Assembly: GCA_022448005.1 (NCBI GenBank)
Contig: JAKUTK010000016.1
Location: forward strand, 1 to 42,561
Length of the DNA stretch: 42,561 nucleotides
Direction: 5' to 3'
Source: Pseudomonas sp.
GTDB taxonomy: Bacteria; Pseudomonadota; Gammaproteobacteria; Pseudomonadales; Pseudomonadaceae
Below the pieces are notes generated by a model. The model was not told where the DNA came from. It did not search any database and was given only the letters and a program-made list of their open reading frames with translations. Positions 2 to 21,084 of the stretch are shown here, one piece after another; position 1 is the stretch's first letter; each line of letters starts with the position of its first letter. The translations under genes were made by a program, and so were the position numbers.

Positions 2-739
2 GCGCGCGGTGCGCTTGGCGACGATGTCGTCCTCGCTGATGCCACTGTGCCCGTGGATGTTGCGCTCTCGTTCGTCTGCAATGCTCGTCTCATAGCGAAA
101 CTCCTCGCGGCCCGGTGCCTTGTAGTCGTGGCACATGAACACGCGGGTCTCGGCTGGTAGCGTGAACAGTTTCTGAATTGACTGGTACAGCGTCCGTGCA
201 TTTCCGCCGGGGAAGTCGCAGCGTGCGGTGCCATAGTCGGGCATGAACAGGGTATCGCCGACGAATGCGGCGTCGCCGATCACATAGGTCATGCAGGCCG
301 GCGTGTGGCCTGGCGTATGAATCGCCTGCGCCTGGATGTGGCCAACCTGAAAGACATCACCGTCGTGAAACAGACGATCAAACTGACGGCCATCAGTGGC
401 GAATTCGCTGCCCGCATTGAACAGGCTGCCAAAGGTGTTTTGTACGACGGTGATCTGGTCGCCGATCGCCAGCGTCCCGCCCAGCCGCTGTTTCAGGTAC
501 GGCGCGGCGCTCAGGTGGTCGGCGTGCACATGGGTTTCGAGCAGCCATTGCACCTTGAGGTCGTGCTCGCGGACATAGTCGACCAGGCGCTCAGCCCCGG
601 CATGTGACGTACGGCCCGACGCCGGATCGTAATCCAGCACCGAGTCGATCAACGCGCACTGACGCGTTTCCGGGTCGCTGACAACATAACTGTAAGTAAA
701 GGTCGCGGGATCGAAGAACGCTTCAACGCGGGCATTCAT
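2..739 (-). CDS. MBL-fold metallo-hydrolase, persulfide dioxygenase/ETHE1-like (3' end cut by window edge)
   Basis: The reading frame begins at ATG 739 and runs off the left edge, so about 246 residues are visible and the C-terminus is missing. The metal-binding motif THVHADH (HxHxDH) is near residue 70, followed by HTPGHTP, VGDTLF and a PDYGTARCDFPGG stretch. That last stretch is typical of the glyoxalase II-like branch that includes sulfur (persulfide) dioxygenases such as ETHE1 and the Blh proteins, which oxidise glutathione persulfide to sulfite using a mononuclear iron centre. Family placement is confident; the substrate is inferred. The gene is monocistronic here and convergent with nothing visible. 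An AT-rich inverted repeat lies 83 bp upstream and could bind a regulator. Confidence 0.85.
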   Translation of the reverse strand, partial: MNARVEAFFDPATFTYSYVVSDPETRQCALIDSVLDYDPASGRTSHAGAERLVDYVREHDLKVQWLLETHVHADHLSAAPYLKQRLGGTLAIGDQITVVQNTFGSLFNAGSEFATDGRQFDRLFHDGDVFQVGHIQAQAIHTPGHTPACMTYVIGDAAFVGDTLFMPDYGTARCDFPGGNARTLYQSIQKLFTLPAETRVFMCHDYKAPGREEFRYETSIADERERNIHGHSGISEDDIVAKRTAR

Positions 740-5302: not shown

Positions 5303-6709
<1,407 letters not shown>

Positions 6710-6973: not shown

Positions 6974-8149
6974 TTGTCAGTTAAAACAAGCTGGGACATC
7001 TTTTGCGTTGTCGTCGACAACTACGGTGACATTGGCGTGACCTGGCGACTGGCGCGGCAGTTGGTGGCCGAGTACGGCCAGTGCGTGCGGTTATGGGTCG
7101 ATGACCTCGATACCTTCGCTCGGCTCTGTCCGGGCGCCAGCACCACCTCCGCTCAGCAATCGCACGAAGGTGTCGAGGTGCGTCATTGGACACCTGAGTG
7201 GTCAGGGGCAGAGCCGGCTGAGGTGGTGATCGAGGCTTTTGCCTGCCAGCTTCCAGACGCCTATATAAAGGCAATGGCTTGCAGTGGGCGCCGCATCCTC
7301 TGGCTCAACCTCGAGTACCTCAGTGCAGAAGACTGGGTGGTGGGCTGCCATGCGCTCCCTTCTATGCAGCCCGATCGCTTGCAGAAGTATTTTTTCTTTC
7401 CGGGATTCGAACAGGGCACCGGCGGACTGATTCGCGAGGGCGATCTGCTGGAACGCCGGGAGGCGTTTCAAGCCAACCCAGTGCTACGTGAAGCCTTTCT
7501 GCAGAGCTTCAGTCTGACCGTGCCGGCCAACGCGCGCTTGCTCTCGCTGTTCGCCTATGAAAATCGCGCCGTTGCCGGATGGCTCGATGCGCTGGCTGTT
7601 GATGAACGTCCATCACAGTTACTAGTGCCTGAGGGTCGGGTCTTGGGCGACGTGGCGGCGTGGCTGGGGCTCGAGCAGCTGCGAGCTGGTGATCGTCACG
7701 CCCGTGGTGCGCTGCAGGTTGCAGTGCTGCCGTTCATGACGCAGAACCAGTACGACATGCTGCTGTGGTGTTGCGACTTCAATGCCGTGCGCGGCGAGGA
7801 ATCCTTCATTCGGGCGCAGTGGGCAGGGCGGCCATTGGTCTGGCACATCTATCCTCAAGATGAAGATGCGCACTGGGACAAGCTCAACGCATATCTGGAT
7901 CTGTATGTCCGCGACCTCTCACCACCGGCTGCGGGAGCGCTACGTGAGTTCTGGCGTGCCTGGAACGAGGGCATAGGCAGCGGCATCGCCTGGACCGCGA
8001 TGCTCGAGCACGAGGCGGAGCTGCAGGCGCATGCGGACCGCTGGACACACAAACAGGTCGCCAACGGAGATCTGGCCGGGAAACTGATGCTGTTTTACGC
8101 GGACTGGTTAGGGCCTGCTCCGGCGCGACACCCGGCTGCTCCGGCTTGA
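6974..8149 (+). CDS. earP: EarP, EF-P-arginine rhamnosyltransferase
   Basis: EarP transfers rhamnose from dTDP-beta-L-rhamnose onto Arg32 of elongation factor P, activating it to relieve ribosome stalling at polyproline. The 391-residue protein has the conserved N-terminal WDIFCVVVDNYGDIGVTWRLARQL, including the two Asp residues used in donor binding and catalysis. Its C-terminal Rossmann half contains FNAVRGEESFIRAQWAGRPLVWHIYPQDEDAH, the signature of the family. The start is TTG 6974: GAGGGG (6962-6967) lies 6 nt upstream and the TTG begins exactly at the conserved N-terminus. Its substrate efp is the next gene, 134 bp downstream, and carries Arg32, so enzyme and substrate are matched. Confidence 0.96.
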   Translation: MSVKTSWDIFCVVVDNYGDIGVTWRLARQLVAEYGQCVRLWVDDLDTFARLCPGASTTSAQQSHEGVEVRHWTPEWSGAEPAEVVIEAFACQLPDAYIKAMACSGRRILWLNLEYLSAEDWVVGCHALPSMQPDRLQKYFFFPGFEQGTGGLIREGDLLERREAFQANPVLREAFLQSFSLTVPANARLLSLFAYENRAVAGWLDALAVDERPSQLLVPEGRVLGDVAAWLGLEQLRAGDRHARGALQVAVLPFMTQNQYDMLLWCCDFNAVRGEESFIRAQWAGRPLVWHIYPQDEDAHWDKLNAYLDLYVRDLSPPAAGALREFWRAWNEGIGSGIAWTAMLEHEAELQAHADRWTHKQVANGDLAGKLMLFYADWLGPAPARHPAAPA

Positions 8150-8283
8150 CCGTTCGGTAAGCCTGCCAGTATGGGACAGCAAAGGGGGCGATGCGTCGCA
8201 GTAACGCGGCTTGCGACGAAACAGGAACAGACCCTATGATACGCGGCCTGATTTTATGTCTCTAATTCCATTCGGATATTCGT

Positions 8284-8850
8284 ATGAAAACCGCACAAGA
8301 GTTCCGTGCCGGCCAAGTGGCCGTTATCAACGGCGCGCCCTGGATCATCCAGAAAGCCGAGTTCAACAAGTCCGGTCGTAACAGTGCCGTGGTCAAAATG
8401 AAGCTGAAGAACCTGCTCAATGGTTCGGCGACCGAGACCGTTTATAAGGCTGATGACAAGCTGGAACCGGTCATTCTCGAGCGCAAGGAAGTGACCTATT
8501 CCTACTTCGCTGACCCGCTCTACGTATTCATGGACGAAGAGTTCAACCAGTACGAAATCGAAAAAGACGACCTTGAAGGCGTGATGACCTTCATCGAAGA
8601 CGGCATGACTGACGTCTGCGAAGCCACTTTCTACAACGACAAGGTGATTTCAGTCGATCTGCCGAACACTATCGTTCGTGAAATCGTCTACACCGAGCCG
8701 TCCGTTCGTGGCGACACTTCCGGCAAGGTAATGAAGACTGCGCGCCTGAAGAATGGCGCTGAGCTGCAGGTTTCCGCTTTTTGCGAAATCGGCGACTCGA
8801 TCGAAATCGACACGCGCACCGGCGAGTACAAGTCCCGCATCAAGGCCTGA
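8284..8850 (+). CDS. efp: Elongation factor P, arginine-32 type
   Basis: EF-P enters the ribosomal E/P site and stimulates peptide bond formation at consecutive prolines. The 188-residue protein has the usual three beta-barrel domains, an N-terminal KOW-like domain and two OB-like domains ending in [13 protein letters not shown]. The modification loop reads [12 protein letters not shown] and the tip residue is Arg32 rather than lysine. This is the form rhamnosylated by EarP, encoded immediately upstream. EpmA/EpmB-type lysylation would not apply to it. No strong Shine-Dalgarno precedes ATG 8284. A canonical terminator follows at 8902-8930. Confidence 0.98.
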
Positions 8851-8901
8851 TTACAGCCCTGCGCGGACGAGCCTGGCCTGGCGCCGGGTTAGTTGATACC
8901 G

Positions 8902-8930
8902 AACCCCGCTTATTGCGGGGTTTCGTTTTT
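8902..8930 (+). terminator. Intrinsic terminator of efp
   Basis: AACCCCGC (8902-8909) pairs perfectly with GCGGGGTT (8915-8922) across a TTATT loop, followed by CGTTTTT. It lies 52 bp after the efp stop codon and closes the earP-efp region. Confidence 0.88.
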
Positions 8931-9161
8931 CTCGGGCTGGTGATATGTGGTGGCCGCCCGCGCGGTGTCTGCATTCTTCGTGGAAAGCAGCAAACGGAGC
9001 GTCAGGCACTACGGTTCATCTGAACGGTAGGACCTGACACGAGAGAGGTGCTTACCCTGCGAGGTTGCCTCCACTAGAGCTGCATCGGGACGGCGGCTCT
9101 GATGCTCAGCCGAACAGACGCGTCTTCAGCTCACAGCCTCAGACAATCTCGTGACAGCGCG

Positions 9162-9192
9162 AGCCCCCGCTGCCCACAGAGCAGCGGGGGCT
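9162..9192. terminator. Strong 12-bp hairpin, possible bidirectional terminator
   Basis: AGCCCCCGCTGC (9162-9173) pairs perfectly with GCAGCGGGGGCT (9181-9192) around a 7-nt loop. The following bases (GATTCTTACT) are only weakly T-rich, so termination efficiency is uncertain. It sits just upstream of the presumed promoter for the aromatic leader and may insulate it from upstream transcription. Confidence 0.5.
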
Positions 9193-9212
9193 GATTCTTA
9201 CTGCACTGCCGG

Positions 9213-9242
9213 TTGAAACCAGGCGGCGCGCTGGAGTATGGT
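9213..9242 (+). promoter_or_regulatory. Candidate promoter for the aromatic leader and DAHP synthase transcript
   Basis: TTGAAA (9213-9218) and TATGGT (9237-9242) are spaced by 18 bp. A start near 9249 would leave a short 5' end carrying GGAGA (9256-9260) before the first leader ATG at 9266, the arrangement expected of attenuator-controlled transcripts. Motif evidence only. Confidence 0.45.
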
Positions 9243-9265
9243 TCGGGCATCCTTTGGAGAACAGC

Positions 9266-9394
9266 ATGCTGCTCAATCTGATTCCCTCGATCCTTGCGAC
9301 CATCGGCGCCATGCGCACGGCGTTGCTGCGTGGGCAGGCGATTGCGGCTGACGGTTACTATTTTGGGTATTGGTTTAGCCATCGGCGCGCCTGA
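9266..9394 (+). CDS. Leader peptide 1, aromatic-rich (42 aa), attenuation of DAHP synthase
   Basis: A 42-codon frame with a good ribosome binding site (GGAGA, 5 nt before ATG 9266) ends in a cluster of aromatic codons: residues 31-37 read YYFGYWF (TAC TAT TTT GGG TAT TGG TTT), followed by SHRRA and TGA. Forty-eight bp later comes an intrinsic terminator with a long T-run (9443-9483), then eventually a DAHP synthase gene, the first step of Tyr, Phe and Trp synthesis. This is the layout of a classical ribosome-mediated attenuator, in which stalling at Tyr, Phe or Trp codons would favour an antiterminator. GGGTCG (9420-9425) can pair, with one bulge, with CGAACCC (9441-9447) at the base of the terminator. 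Function is inferred; the frame and terminator are directly visible. Confidence 0.8.
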   Translation: MLLNLIPSILATIGAMRTALLRGQAIAADGYYFGYWFSHRRA

Positions 9395-9442
9395 TACCCC
9401 ACCGGCGCCCTAGCAACCCGGGTCGCCACCAGACAGTTTTCG

Positions 9443-9483
9443 AACCCCCGGTCGGCCACCCGACCGGGGGTTTTGTTTTTTTT
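9443..9483 (+). terminator. Intrinsic terminator acting as attenuator behind leader peptide 1
   Basis: AACCCCCGGTCGG (9443-9455) pairs perfectly with CCGACCGGGGGTT (9460-9472) over a CCAC loop, followed by TTGTTTTTTTT. It lies between the first aromatic leader and the DAHP synthase with no complete gene before it, so it must be read through for expression. An upstream near-copy of its left arm (AACCCGGGTCGCCACC, 9415-9430) may take part in alternative pairing. Confidence 0.9.
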
Positions 9484-9518
9484 GGCCTGAGAAGGCCTCA
9501 CACACCGAGGACAGCACC

Positions 9519-9620
9519 ATGTATCACAACACCAACGCTTACCGCACCTACCGCTATGACTGGCGATTTAGCCGCTTCACGGCCGCAGCACTTACACACC
9601 CAGACCGAACACTTCGCTAG
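9519..9620 (+). CDS. Leader peptide 2, aromatic-rich (33 aa)
   Basis: A second short frame lies after the attenuator. ATG 9519 has a strong ribosome binding site, GAGGA (9507-9511), 7 nt upstream. Seven of its first 20 residues are aromatic: Tyr 2, 8, 11 and 13, Trp 15, Phe 17 and 20 (core YRTYRYDWRFSRF). It ends with TAG at 9618-9620, only 1 nt before a perfect 12-bp hairpin. The DAHP synthase start is 45 bp further on. Density of Tyr, Trp and Phe codons, ribosome binding site and position all point to a second stalling peptide for the same gene. Its mechanism need not be transcriptional, because the hairpin has no T-run. Confidence 0.75.
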   Translation: MYHNTNAYRTYRYDWRFSRFTAAALTHPDRTLR

Positions 9621-9621
9621 C

Positions 9622-9649
9622 GCCGACGCGGCACAGATGCCGCGTCGGC
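9622..9649 (+). promoter_or_regulatory. Perfect hairpin abutting the DAHP synthase ribosome binding site
   Basis: GCCGACGCGGCA (9622-9633) pairs perfectly with TGCCGCGTCGGC (9638-9649) over a CAGA loop. AAAGGA, the DAHP synthase ribosome binding site, follows at 9651-9656. There is no T-run, so this is better read as a translation-level or antitermination element than as a terminator. A ribosome finishing leader peptide 2 would stop right at its base. Confidence 0.7.
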
Positions 9650-9665
9650 CAAAGGACCGCCAGTC

Positions 9666-10736
9666 ATGAATGCACCAATCAACGCCTCAGCCCTTAGCTG
9701 CAATACGTCCTCCACCCCAGCCAGACGTAGCGCTCTTCCGTTACCGAGTCCCGCTTTACTGCGGCAACGGCTGCCCCTCAGCGCATCGCTTGAGGAGCGC
9801 GTCCGAGATGATCGAAAGGCCATTCGCGCCGTGCTTAACGGCGATGACCCGCGCCTGCTGGTGGTGGTCGGCCCTTGCTCATTGCATGATCCGGCGTCCG
9901 CACTGGAATACGCCGAGCGGCTGGCTGAACTGGTTCCGAAGGTCAGCGATCAGCTGCTGCTAGTAATGCGCGCATATGTCGAGAAACCACGAACTACCGT
10001 CGGGTGGAAGGGGCTGGTTTACGATCCGCAGCTCGATGGCAGCGGTGACATGGCTGAAGGGTTGCACCTGTCGCGGCGGTTGATGCTGGATATCCTGGCG
10101 TGCGGGCTGCCGATCGCCTCCGAATTGTTGCAGCCCCTGGCGGCGGGCTATTTTGATGACCTGCTTGGCTGGGCAGCGATCGGTGCACGTACCAGCGAGT
10201 CGCAGATTCACCGTGAGATGGTCAGCGGGCTCGACCTGCCGGTGGGGTTCAAGAACGGGACCGATGGCAGCCTCGGGATTGCTTGTGATGCCATGCGCTC
10301 GGCTGAGCACCCGCATCAGCACTTCGGAATCGACGAGCTGGGGCATCCAGCGCTACTAAGCACGAGCGGCAATGGGGATACCCATCTGGTGTTGCGTGGT
10401 GGACACTCAGGGCCGAATTTTGACGAGGACAGCGTCGCAAAGGCCCGTGACACGTTGGCGCGCCAGGGCATTGCCCAGCGCATCATGGTCGACTGCAGTC
10501 ATGCCAACAGCGGTAAAAACCCACTGAGTCAGCCAGCAGTACTGTCATCCGTTGTCGATCAACGCATGGCTGGCGATTCAAGTCTGCGCGGCGTGATGCT
10601 CGAGAGCCACCTGTTCGACGGCTGCCAGCCCCTGTCCGGCGAGCTGAGGTATGGCGTTTCCATTACCGACGGCTGCCTTGGTTGGAGTGCGACCGAGCGG
10701 ATGCTGCTTGGCGAAGCGGATCGCCTGCGCCGCTAG
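9666..10736 (+). CDS. 3-deoxy-7-phosphoheptulonate (DAHP) synthase, class I
   Basis: The enzyme condenses phosphoenolpyruvate with erythrose 4-phosphate, the committed step of the shikimate pathway. The 356-residue protein is the length of AroF/G/H enzymes. Visible family motifs in order are VVVGPCSLHD, MRAYVEKPRTTVGWKG, GARTSESQIHREM, PVGFKNGTDG, HLVLRGG, MVDCSHANSGK (metal and substrate ligands) and GVMLESHLFDG. The start is ATG 9666 with AAAGGA 9 nt upstream. The first 30 or so residues are poorly conserved, as usual for the regulatory N-terminus, so the feedback inhibitor cannot be read off and no isoform letter is assigned. The gene stands alone behind two aromatic leader peptides, implying control by charged Tyr, Phe and Trp tRNA levels. 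Confidence 0.96.
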   Translation: MNAPINASALSCNTSSTPARRSALPLPSPALLRQRLPLSASLEERVRDDRKAIRAVLNGDDPRLLVVVGPCSLHDPASALEYAERLAELVPKVSDQLLLVMRAYVEKPRTTVGWKGLVYDPQLDGSGDMAEGLHLSRRLMLDILACGLPIASELLQPLAAGYFDDLLGWAAIGARTSESQIHREMVSGLDLPVGFKNGTDGSLGIACDAMRSAEHPHQHFGIDELGHPALLSTSGNGDTHLVLRGGHSGPNFDEDSVAKARDTLARQGIAQRIMVDCSHANSGKNPLSQPAVLSSVVDQRMAGDSSLRGVMLESHLFDGCQPLSGELRYGVSITDGCLGWSATERMLLGEADRLRR

Positions 10737-10744
10737 AGCGAACC

Positions 10745-10767
10745 AGCCCGGCTGCGACGGCCGGGCT
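10745..10767 (+). terminator. Hairpin downstream of DAHP synthase, weak terminator candidate
   Basis: AGCCCGGC (10745-10752) pairs with GCCGGGCT (10760-10767) over a 7-nt loop, 9 bp after the stop codon. No T-run follows, so it may be a weak or Rho-assisted terminator. Confidence 0.4.
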
Positions 10768-10830
10768 TGCGGCGTCGGGTTGCCAAGGGCAACCTTTGCG
10801 GCTCGTTTCGATCGATGAATCAGGACCTGC

Positions 10831-11502
10831 ATGCGCGACTACAAATGGTTGCACGAATACTGCCTCAATCGTTTCGGCTCGGCCGCAGCACTGGAGAGCC
10901 GCCTGCCGCAACCCCATAGTCCCGATGAGCTTCGCGCCGTTGCGGATGACCGATACCTTTCGCTGATCAGCCTGCGTATCTTCCGCGCCGGGCTCAAGCA
11001 CAGCCTGGTCGACGCCAAATGGCCGGCGTTCGAAGAGGTCTTCTTTCGTTTCGACCCTGAGAAGCTGGTGTTGATGGGCGGCGAACACATTGAACGGCTG
11101 ATGCAGGACGCCCGCATCATCCGTCACCTGGGCAAGCTCAAGAGCGTGCCGCGCAACGCCCAGTTCGTGCTGGACGTGGCGAAGGAGAAGGGGAGTTTCG
11201 GCAACCTGATCGCGGATTGGCCGGTCACCGATATCGTCGGCCTGTGGCGCTATCTGGCCAAACACGGCACCCAGCTGGGAGGCCTTTCGGCGCCGCGTCT
11301 GCTGCGCATGGCGGGCAAGGACACCTTTGTTCCCAGCGATGACGTGGTCGCTGCGCTCAAAGCGCAGAAGGTGGTAGACAAGGTGCCCAGCAGCCAGCGG
11401 GACCAGGCAGCCGTGCAATCGGTGTTCAACCAATGGCACAGCGACAGTGGCCGCCCCATGTCTCAGCTTTCGGCGATGCTGGCGTTTACGGTAAACCACT
11501 GA
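10831..11502 (+). CDS. DNA-3-methyladenine glycosylase I-like protein (Tag family)
   Basis: The 223-residue protein resembles the Tag-like branch common in pseudomonads. Tag removes 3-methyladenine from alkylated DNA, starting base excision repair. Recognisable stretches are LVDAKWPAFEEVFFRFDPEKL, MQDARIIRHLGKLKSVPRNAQ (helix-hairpin region) and LWRYLAKHGTQLGG. The N-terminus MRDYKWLHEYCLNRFG differs from the Cys-Trp zinc-binding start of E. coli Tag. The terminal zinc-snap His and Cys residues of classical Tag are not obviously conserved, so family membership is likely but activity is not certain. It stands alone between the DAHP synthase and the DUF2946 gene. Confidence 0.75.
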   Translation: MRDYKWLHEYCLNRFGSAAALESRLPQPHSPDELRAVADDRYLSLISLRIFRAGLKHSLVDAKWPAFEEVFFRFDPEKLVLMGGEHIERLMQDARIIRHLGKLKSVPRNAQFVLDVAKEKGSFGNLIADWPVTDIVGLWRYLAKHGTQLGGLSAPRLLRMAGKDTFVPSDDVVAALKAQKVVDKVPSSQRDQAAVQSVFNQWHSDSGRPMSQLSAMLAFTVNH

Positions 11503-20654: not shown

Positions 20655-20823
20655 GGGTGGCTGTCTTCTCGTCTGATGTTTGTGACGGTGGCATTGTTGC
20701 ATTCGAAGCCAATCGGCGCCCGGCGTTCCGGTAAATCGCAAGCAGCGCTCCCGAAACCTATTCTGGCTCGGGTCCTGATCGCTTTCGGTTGCGCTGCGCA
20801 GGGCCTTGGACTACCCTCCGCGC

Positions 20824-21020
20824 TGCTTCAGGTGCCCCCTGGCGAAACGCCAGAGGGGTGAAACAGGGAAGCCGGTTCATTCGATGAAGATTCCGGCGCT
20901 GCCCCCGCAACGGTAGGCGAGACAGGACACCGCTCACAGCCACTGTGCCACAGGCATGGGAAGGCCGCGGTTCCAGGATGCAAGGCATCCGCTCGCAAGC
21001 CCGGAGACCGGCCTGTCGCA
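20824..21020 (+). promoter_or_regulatory. Cobalamin (AdoCbl-type) riboswitch
   Basis: The leader holds the conserved cobalamin riboswitch pieces in order: GGTGCCCC...GGGGTGAAACAGGGAAGCCGG, the core GCTGCCCCCGCAACGGTA, AGCCACTG (20938-20945) and the B12 box AAGCCCGGAGACCGGCCTG (20997-21015). It precedes btuB and the whole cobalamin operon, so binding of adenosylcobalamin should switch both uptake and synthesis off. The gap of 125 bp to the btuB start contains an anti-Shine-Dalgarno element described separately. The rest of the 485-bp region from 20655 holds no gene; promoters for the divergent genes must lie at about 20660-20820. Confidence 0.96.
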
Positions 21021-21084
21021 TTCCACGGCAGTGCGGCGGGCGCTGATCGGGGTGCGGCTGCTTGCACCTGCGCTCCCTTCGCAT

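Follow-up and report, generated by a model that had tools for sequence, protein, structure and literature searches.

The locus described here raises the question why one biosynthetic gene should be preceded by two leader peptides rich in the same amino acids. The gene encodes DAHP synthase (3-deoxy-7-phosphoheptulonate synthase), which is the entry valve of aromatic synthesis and a frequent target of metabolic engineering, and it lies on a contig of 42,561 nucleotides (nt) from a Pseudomonas sp. (GenBank assembly GCA_022448005.1, contig JAKUTK010000016.1); this whole stretch is called the window below. An earlier interpretation made from the letters of the DNA (the sequence-only reading) had proposed that two aromatic-rich leaders stand in series on one transcript and could act as a transcriptional gate followed by a translational one. 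The two-leader arrangement is real and conserved. Between the genes for elongation factor P and DAHP synthase follow, in this order, a promoter-like site, leader 1, a terminator, leader 2, a hairpin, the Shine-Dalgarno sequence AAAGGA and the start of the gene (Table 1), and sequence comparison indicates that the aromatic-rich leader pair is kept together across related bacterial families. Leader 1 is very probably a transcription attenuator. For the wider model, in which both serial leader peptides would read charged aromatic transfer RNA (tRNA), the first at transcription and the second at translation, we put the chances at even.

Conservation was examined in the best 80 of 588 DAHP synthase relatives; with the window added and locus L065, which has no upstream DNA, removed, the set comprised 80 loci (L001 and L002, which stem from the window's own genome, were also left out before counting). 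In several counts, gene and leader starts were set by rule. A small number of them are probably misplaced, such as those of leader 1 in L003 and L007 and those of the gene in L039, L040 and L047. Leader 2 was found in 76 of the 80 loci, all of which also carry leader 1 (74 by pattern, two by reading), and the leader-2 block described below is missing from four Salinicola loci. The aromatic codons, the terminator and the hairpin are all kept in relatives, as the sequence-only reading had expected.

Near its end leader 1 has a run of seven residues, YYFGYWF, six of them aromatic; this run, a Shine-Dalgarno sequence of its own and a terminator with a T-run were all found where the sequence-only reading had placed them. 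The pattern TAYTGGTTY is present in 78 of the 80 loci (L075 and L079 have a divergent aromatic leader 1), and the exact string TATTGGTTTAG in 71. Rare codons explain part of these frozen bases: in the leader-1 control stretch tyrosine is spelled TAT in 173 of 191 codons, as against 77 of 438 in the DAHP synthase genes, and phenylalanine is spelled TTT in 172 of 200 codons, as against 20 of 334. A covariance-model scan of positions 8500-11000 matched the end of leader 1 and the attenuator to Rfam RF00627, 'Pseudomonas sRNA P15', at 111.4 bits (gathering cut-off 70) and over the full length of the model (1-119 of 119); P15 is the sole Rfam family above cut-off at the leader locus. Its conserved 5' part is the codon run TAC TAT TTT GGG TAT TGG TTT AGC and its 3' end is the terminator, and no T-box was found among the three gathering-level matches in the window or among the ten matches up to an E-value of 10 at 8500-11000.

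Folding of the window sequence is consistent with attenuation; folding energies throughout refer to naked RNA with a simple ribosome mask, and all of the work was in silico. With the control codons unmasked, the helices GGGTAT/ATACCC and GGCGCCC/GGGTCGCC form. With the Tyr-to-Trp codons masked and the 3' arm of the terminator not yet made, GGCGCGCC captures GGCGCCC, which leaves CCGGGTCG free to pair with CGAACCCCCGG and blocks the 5' arm of the terminator. This predicted antiterminator is absent in free RNA of the window and present with the control codons masked, and also with a ribosome at the leader-1 stop. P15 would be the attenuated end of the leader transcript, and we infer that it is likely an attenuation product instead of a free small RNA (sRNA).

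Leader 2 has its own Shine-Dalgarno sequence and seven aromatic residues among its first 20 (Y2, Y8, Y11, Y13, W15, F17 and F20), in agreement with the earlier description, and the aromatic N-terminus is retained from Pseudomonas through Halomonas. The most surprising part of the region is a frozen block of 10 nt within this leader. The exact sequence TGGCGATTTA is present in 75 of the 80 loci and a one-base variant, TGGCGCTTTA, in L062, which gives the total of 76. Of the 1008 10-nt windows in the aligned DAHP synthase gene, the most conserved is identical in 76% of 75 leader-2-bearing loci (L078 was left out of this comparison, being cut short by a stop within the stretch used); the leader-2 block is conserved beyond any 10-nt stretch of the aligned enzyme gene. 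An in-frame ATG and a 4-nt Shine-Dalgarno core accompany it in 76 of 76 loci, and tyrosine before the leader-2 Trp codon is spelled both ways (86 TAT, 196 TAC), which is a sign that leader 2 is translated. The arginine codon CGA of the block makes up 73 of 2018 arginine codons in the DAHP synthase genes and only 1 of 106 before the leader-2 Trp codon, so general use of rare codons does not explain it; after the WRF motif CGA accounts for 110 of 264 arginine codons. A further block, CGAACAC, recurs near the end of leader 2 in most Pseudomonas-type loci. Neither leader peptide matches a Pfam family (up to an E-value of 0.1). Two simple explanations of the block were tried and rejected. Complements of TGGCGATTTA occur at the leader-2 start, in the leader-1 strand and at the ribosome site, and no single one of them is a conserved partner in cis. 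A programmed frameshift at CGA-TTT-A would lead into a frame that overlaps the DAHP synthase start and ends at 9669 in the window; this idea was dropped because the frame stops early in L005 and L019 (a full count was not made).

The leaders and the gene are likely transcribed as one unit. In 68 of 78 loci, a site of the form TTGnnn-16..18-TAnnnT stands no more than 75 nt from the leader-1 start, as against 22 of 2140 random 75-nt windows, and none was found in the 80 nt before leader 2 in any of 76 loci, by a sigma-70-like pattern that is not a mapped start. The pattern of sites makes one transcript likely, and an internal promoter before leader 2, a start that would remove leader 1 from the message, was not found by this count. 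The perfect 12-base-pair hairpin and the ribosome site behind it are present as previously described. In the 64 of 76 leader-2 loci with at least 30 nt to the gene start, the hairpin region is more stable than its shuffles (z below -1) in 62; the 12 'short' loci outside this count are L060, L071 and L073-L082, L060 and L073 partly because of the start chosen. A T-rich tail follows the hairpin in none of the 64 loci, so the hairpin was rejected as a second intrinsic terminator and a translational second step is the natural reading.

Table 1. Features of the leader region in the window
Feature	Position	Strand	Details and basis
Elongation factor P gene	8284-8850		upstream neighbour of the leader region
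Promoter-like site TTGAAA-18-TATGGT	9213-9242	+	before leader 1
Leader 1 open reading frame	9266-9394	+	42 amino acids, ATG 9266 to TGA 9394, peptide ending ...GYYFGYWFSHRRA; Shine-Dalgarno GGAG at 9256-9259; control codons TAC TAT TTT GGG TAT TGG TTT at 9356-9376
Rfam RF00627 (P15)	9352-9470	+	end of leader 1 and attenuator; covariance model
Hairpin GGGTAT..ATACCC	9365-9399	+	strand 1 carries control codons; folding and P15 consensus structure
Second protector helix GGCGCCC/GGGTCGCC	9404-9427	+	folding and P15 consensus structure
Predicted antiterminator	9418-9451	+	CCGGGTCG (9418-9425) with CGAACCCCCGG (9441-9451); folding
Intrinsic terminator	9442-9483	+	stem 9442-9473 (14 pairs), then T-run TGTTTTTTTT
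Leader 2 open reading frame	9519-9620	+	33 amino acids, ATG 9519 to TAG 9620; Shine-Dalgarno GAGGA at 9507-9511
Trap strand 1, TATGACTGGCG	9555-9565	+	Tyr-Asp-Trp-Arg codons of leader 2; predicted
Frozen block TGGCGATTTA	9561-9570	+	codons Trp-Arg(CGA)-Phe(TTT)-A
CGAACAC block	9606-9612	+	near leader-2 end
Perfect 12-base-pair hairpin	9622-9649	+	between leader-2 stop and ribosome site
DAHP synthase Shine-Dalgarno AAAGGA	9651-9656	+	
Trap strand 2, CGCCAGTCATG	9658-9668	+	CGCCAGTC and start codon ATG; predicted
DAHP synthase gene	9666-10736	+	controlled gene, start codon ATG at 9666; NF009395 (496.6 bits), TIGR00034 (426 bits), PF00793

The spread of the two leaders was followed with the P15 model and with a leader-2 core model, R2, built from an alignment of 48 loci; searches of more than 40 genomes used Infernal's stricter filters, at which weak matches are lost. 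Among 293 genomes drawn from the order, P15 was found in 27 and R2 in 17, one of the latter (G543) lying, by reading, inside a long open reading frame that resembles ftsW, so that it was counted as chance. Both models matched in 15 genomes, namely 12 of the 13 listed members of the window's family and three of a family, f3, which from the likeness of its leaders is inferred to be Halomonadaceae; neither P15 nor R2 was found in G595 of the window's family. Nine of the twelve P15-only genomes were read (the others are G567, G627 and G646): TGGCGATTTA is present in five more of them (L109, L110, L115, L116 and L117) and CTGCGATTTAGC in L111, and no block was seen in L108, L112 and L113. Within the window's genus, 52 of 56 genomes have an R2 match. 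In a class-wide draw, P15 was found in 7 of 369 genomes, two of them above cut-off. When 16 P15-matching loci were opened, 14 had a DAHP synthase; the other two are weak matches (29.8 and 28.4 bits) with none in the stretch. G661, a genome of the window's genus, has two copies of the leader-2 region on different contigs (L151, L176), with no differences in the stretch compared; as this genome has a contamination estimate of 5, the duplicate may be an assembly mixture.

How leader 2 could act on the gene is suggested by its pairing with the ribosome site. The two trap strands of Table 1 can form 11 pairs, of which 10 are Watson-Crick and one is G-U, with the 12-base-pair hairpin inside the loop, and the duplex of the leader stretch with the ribosome site in the window is calculated at -20.0 kcal/mol. 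In the default fold the DAHP synthase ribosome site of the window is predicted to be hidden by leader RNA: opening it takes 11.4 kcal/mol, of which 6.7-7.5 kcal/mol are saved when a ribosome has its A site at -12 to +15 of the Trp codon. A duplex of -12.0 kcal/mol or below is found in 49 of 53 loci of the genus, window included (17 of 20 distinct combinations of leader and ribosome site), and these 49 have z-scores of -2.0 or below relative to shuffled leader stretches. In the two genus loci that have TTC for GAC before the Trp codon, the sequence at the start is TCAGAATG, six pairs are kept and the duplex is weak (-5.3 and -7.2 kcal/mol). The ribosome-mask test was run on 25 of the 53 loci: with the ribosome at -6, 0 and +6 from the Trp codon, opening becomes cheaper by more than 1 kcal/mol in 18, 17 and 17 of the 25, and with it at +27, +33, +39 and +45 in 1, 4, 3 and 2. 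Sequences complementary to TGGCGATTT are present in the ribosome site of DAHP synthase at 29 of 76 loci (20 of 55 distinct sites), compared with 11 of 153 control genes; among shuffled probes, 2.2% do equally well on distinct sites. For a translational gate opened by stalling in leader 2, a reading confined to the window's genus and modelled on predicted folds, we see about equal chances for and against.

On these grounds a two-step mechanism can be proposed. Transcription would start before leader 1. With ample Tyr-, Phe- and Trp-tRNA, the ribosome would leave leader 1, both protector helices would form, and the terminator would halt RNA polymerase, the short RNA left over being P15. When one aromatic tRNA is short, the ribosome would wait on TAC TAT TTT GGG TAT TGG, the antiterminator would form before the terminator is complete, and transcription would continue into leader 2. 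There, the Tyr-Asp-Trp-Arg codons would pair with CGCCAGTC and the start codon, while the hairpin folds away the RNA between the trap strands; a ribosome waiting on these same codons would break the helix and free the start codon. With both gates in place, expression of the gene would therefore require that the shortage of aromatic tRNAs persists once the first gate is open. The most far-reaching form of this proposal is that the same aromatic tRNA pools are read twice, the attenuator opening first and leader 2, whose codons lock the start codon, still having to stall (an AND gate in time), and that the core TGGCGATTTA is an undescribed regulatory element older than the split between Pseudomonas and Halomonas; we offer it tentatively, as a possibility somewhat short of even chances. 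A conserved two-leader control region would account for the response of a single gene to three amino acids at a sharp threshold, and it would provide a testable natural case of transcriptional and translational attenuation in series.

Several observations weigh against this proposal. At leader 1, a ribosome at the stop codon also permits the antiterminator in the incomplete RNA according to folding, so that termination would require release of the ribosome, and the complete terminator, once present, is found in all predicted folds, stalled or not, so that the choice must be kinetic and set by the order of events. At the trap, upstream masks (-27 and -24) also help in 6 and 5 of the 25 genus loci, in L153 opening becomes dearer with the control codons masked, and the loci's own pairing is only slightly better than re-dealt pairing (-14.55 versus -14.12 kcal/mol, 4.2% of the permutations being as good, with relatedness not removed). 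A ribosome that holds the Trp codon in its A site makes opening cheaper by more than 1 kcal/mol in 10 of the 24 window-type loci of the first set, in 4 of 40 fluorescens/putida-type loci and in 0 of 11 Halomonas-type loci. Leader 1 occurs without the leader-2 block in L067-L070, L108, L112, L113, L124 and L125; L111 has lost the Trp codon and retained GCGATTTAGC within its variant block; and a varying partner does not account for the near-invariance of TGGCGATTTA. A start-codon trap common to all lineages was rejected, since it fails in most fluorescens/putida-type and all Halomonas-type loci tested; a ribosome site opened by stalling is predicted as a lineage-bound feature of most tested loci of the window's genus. 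The succession of a transcriptional and a translational gate in the sequence-only reading thus fares unevenly: the missing T-rich tail agrees with it, whereas opening by a stalled ribosome is predicted mainly in the window's genus. The assignment of the leader-1 region to P15, the 10-nt block and the lineage-specific helix between leader 2 and the start codon are points that go beyond that reading.

Other designs of leader 2 were seen outside the window type. A longer leader 2 is present in 51 loci of the fluorescens/putida- and Halomonas-type groups, of which 31 were aligned (30 distinct rows). After TGGCGATTTA the aligned long leaders contain a gapless stretch of 75 nt with two interleaved helices, CGNTCGG/CCGANCG and GCCRCC/GGTGGC, the first strand of which begins 6 nt after TTTAGC; no such stretch is present in the window-type leader 2. 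In these helices 93.1% of cells pair, a value reached by 2 of 500 shuffles, and three pairs are changed on both sides (4 of 500 shuffles). The support has weaknesses: one pair fails in 16 of the 30 rows, further pair types are no more numerous than usual (118 of 500 shuffles), and with the partner slid by +3 columns there are four pairs changed on both sides and a covariation of 0.107 versus 0.110, at 53.6% of cells paired. The distance from leader 2 to the gene also varies. In seven Halomonas-type loci (L075, L077-L082), 4-7 nt separate the stop of leader 2 from a DAHP synthase ATG. In most Pseudomonas-type loci the interval from stop to start is about 39-50 nt and contains a stable hairpin. 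L075, L078 and L082 are among the Halomonas-type loci with leader-2 stretches complementary to the region of the Shine-Dalgarno sequence CGGAG; by reading, CTCCG of leader 2 could pair with CGGAG, both strings being present in 7 of 17 loci, and we mention this anti-Shine-Dalgarno pairing as a lead only. Each lineage may have its own form of the second gate; alternatively, leader 2 may serve some other purpose that the lineages share.

These differences between lineages bear on two further explanations of leader 2. It is conceivable, though unlikely, that leader 1 alone senses and that leader 2 feeds ribosomes to the gene by translational coupling, its aromatic codons tuning the traffic. The close stops of the seven Halomonas-type loci suit such coupling, as do the ATGA overlaps between the stop of a short upstream open reading frame and the gene start in L124 and L108, the overlapping reading frames of L125 and the lack of a trap common to all lineages. 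However, the wider spacing and the stable hairpin of most Pseudomonas-type loci do not favour it, coupling does not need CGA-TTT, whose conservation is stricter than that of any 10-nt stretch in the aligned enzyme gene, and it would cut expression under starvation, which is the wrong sign for a biosynthetic gene. The strictness of the block could also mean that it forms, with the helices, an RNA element bound by a protein or a small RNA, translation being secondary. The frozen synonymous sites of TGGCGATTTA in the 75 loci, the survival of GCGATTTAGC after loss of the Trp codon and the interleaved helices of the long leaders point that way, but the in-frame ATG and Shine-Dalgarno sequence in every block-bearing locus, the position of P15 as the only Rfam family above cut-off, the restriction of the interleaved helices to leaders other than the window type and their mixed covariation support make this improbable.

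An arrest peptide resembling TnaC, which would stall when a free aromatic amino acid is abundant, is a very poor candidate for leader 2. WRF(S/T) is present in all 75 translated leader-2 peptides, and many have an RT-like tail; since these peptides were selected with the TGGCGATTTA pattern, the WRF they have in common does not count as independent evidence. The distance from Trp to the stop ranges from 17 to 41 codons, and nucleotides are frozen instead of residues alone. The idea that the region is chiefly a trans-acting sRNA that happens to precede the gene draws on the Rfam label and on PMC2375449, which in its accessible part names P15 among the sRNAs detected by Livny et al. (we take this to be the same RNA as the Rfam P15). 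It can hardly be upheld given that the 5' part of P15 is the aromatic codon run of an open reading frame, that a DAHP synthase follows at all but the two weakly matching opened P15 loci, and that an attenuated leader would itself show up as a short RNA.

The leaders of the trp, his, leu and phe operons are ribosome-mediated transcription attenuators. Leader 1 resembles these (see also PMC1183508) in its promoter-like site, ribosome site, control codons, predicted alternative helices and terminator, and the present locus differs in that three aromatic amino acids are addressed at once, one extra helix lies between protector and antiterminator and a second leader follows. RF00627 is the same RNA over its whole length, filed as an sRNA gene and interpreted here as the end of an attenuated leader. 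The uORFC-13-1 motif before aroF in Acholeplasma, proposed to be an attenuator, has a leader open reading frame with Phe codon(s) and a terminator; it has one leader and belongs to another phylum, and a second leader or a trap for the ribosome site is not described in the part of PMC8632094 that presents it. A table of a Shewanella study, available in part, lists an 'Attenuator sensing tyr-tRNA' for aroF (PMC2659441). In ermB, two leader peptides take part in translational attenuation, according to the portion of PMC8274638 available to us, and, as proposed here, a ribosome that stalls on a leader peptide governs the gene that follows; the stalling is induced by an antibiotic, however, and that portion describes no transcription attenuator of the amino acid type in front.

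The nearest relative of the proposed second step appears to be the LEU element of actinobacterial leuA; for it, the accessible sections of PMC1262725 (2005) describe consecutive leucine codons that pair with the Shine-Dalgarno box, along with a predicted pseudoknot. The likeness lies in an upstream open reading frame with a run of control codons that pair with the Shine-Dalgarno region of the following gene, and some of the relatives studied here have interleaved, pseudoknot-like helices as well. Pairing of control codons with a ribosome site is therefore already known. Unlike the LEU element, the locus described here uses aromatic codons, its pairing hits the spacer and start codon just past the Shine-Dalgarno sequence, and a complete transcription attenuator stands in front; as the window also has no pseudoknot stretch, it was not filed as a LEU element. 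In the same sections, codon mutants kept regulation, and the authors judged translation of the leader unlikely and favoured a protein, which is a warning for leader 2 too. Neither the region nor stacked amino acid leaders were described in the literature searched by title, abstract and passages, which covers few subscription journals and gives weak grounds for assuming absence. P15, DAHP and aroF are not mentioned in PMC2965389, on premature terminators, and neither Pseudomonas nor aroF in PMC4833913, on leader reinitiation. By comparison with these systems, the stacked pair of leaders would seem to be new, with each step of a known type. Half of the control region is filed as an sRNA, and the other half is without annotation in the libraries searched.

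Some observations concern the surroundings of the locus. The bacterium probably belongs to the genus Stutzerimonas; the nearest named relative of the window's DAHP synthase among the matches listed is that of Stutzerimonas stutzeri 4C29 (95% identity). The genome of the window (G000, 4.99 Mb) has a second DAHP synthase (G000:C120); no short open reading frame with four aromatic residues per ten was found there in the 3996 bases searched. A GC-rich hairpin of 12 pairs with a weak T-tail lies at 9162-9192, upstream of the promoter-like site of leader 1, and further upstream EarP (elongation factor P arginine rhamnosyltransferase, TIGR03837) and elongation factor P together occupy 6974-8850. The window also contains a Small SRP RNA at 6595-6691 (RF00169, 76.7 bits) and a Cobalamin riboswitch at 20813-21030 (RF00174, 100.3 bits).

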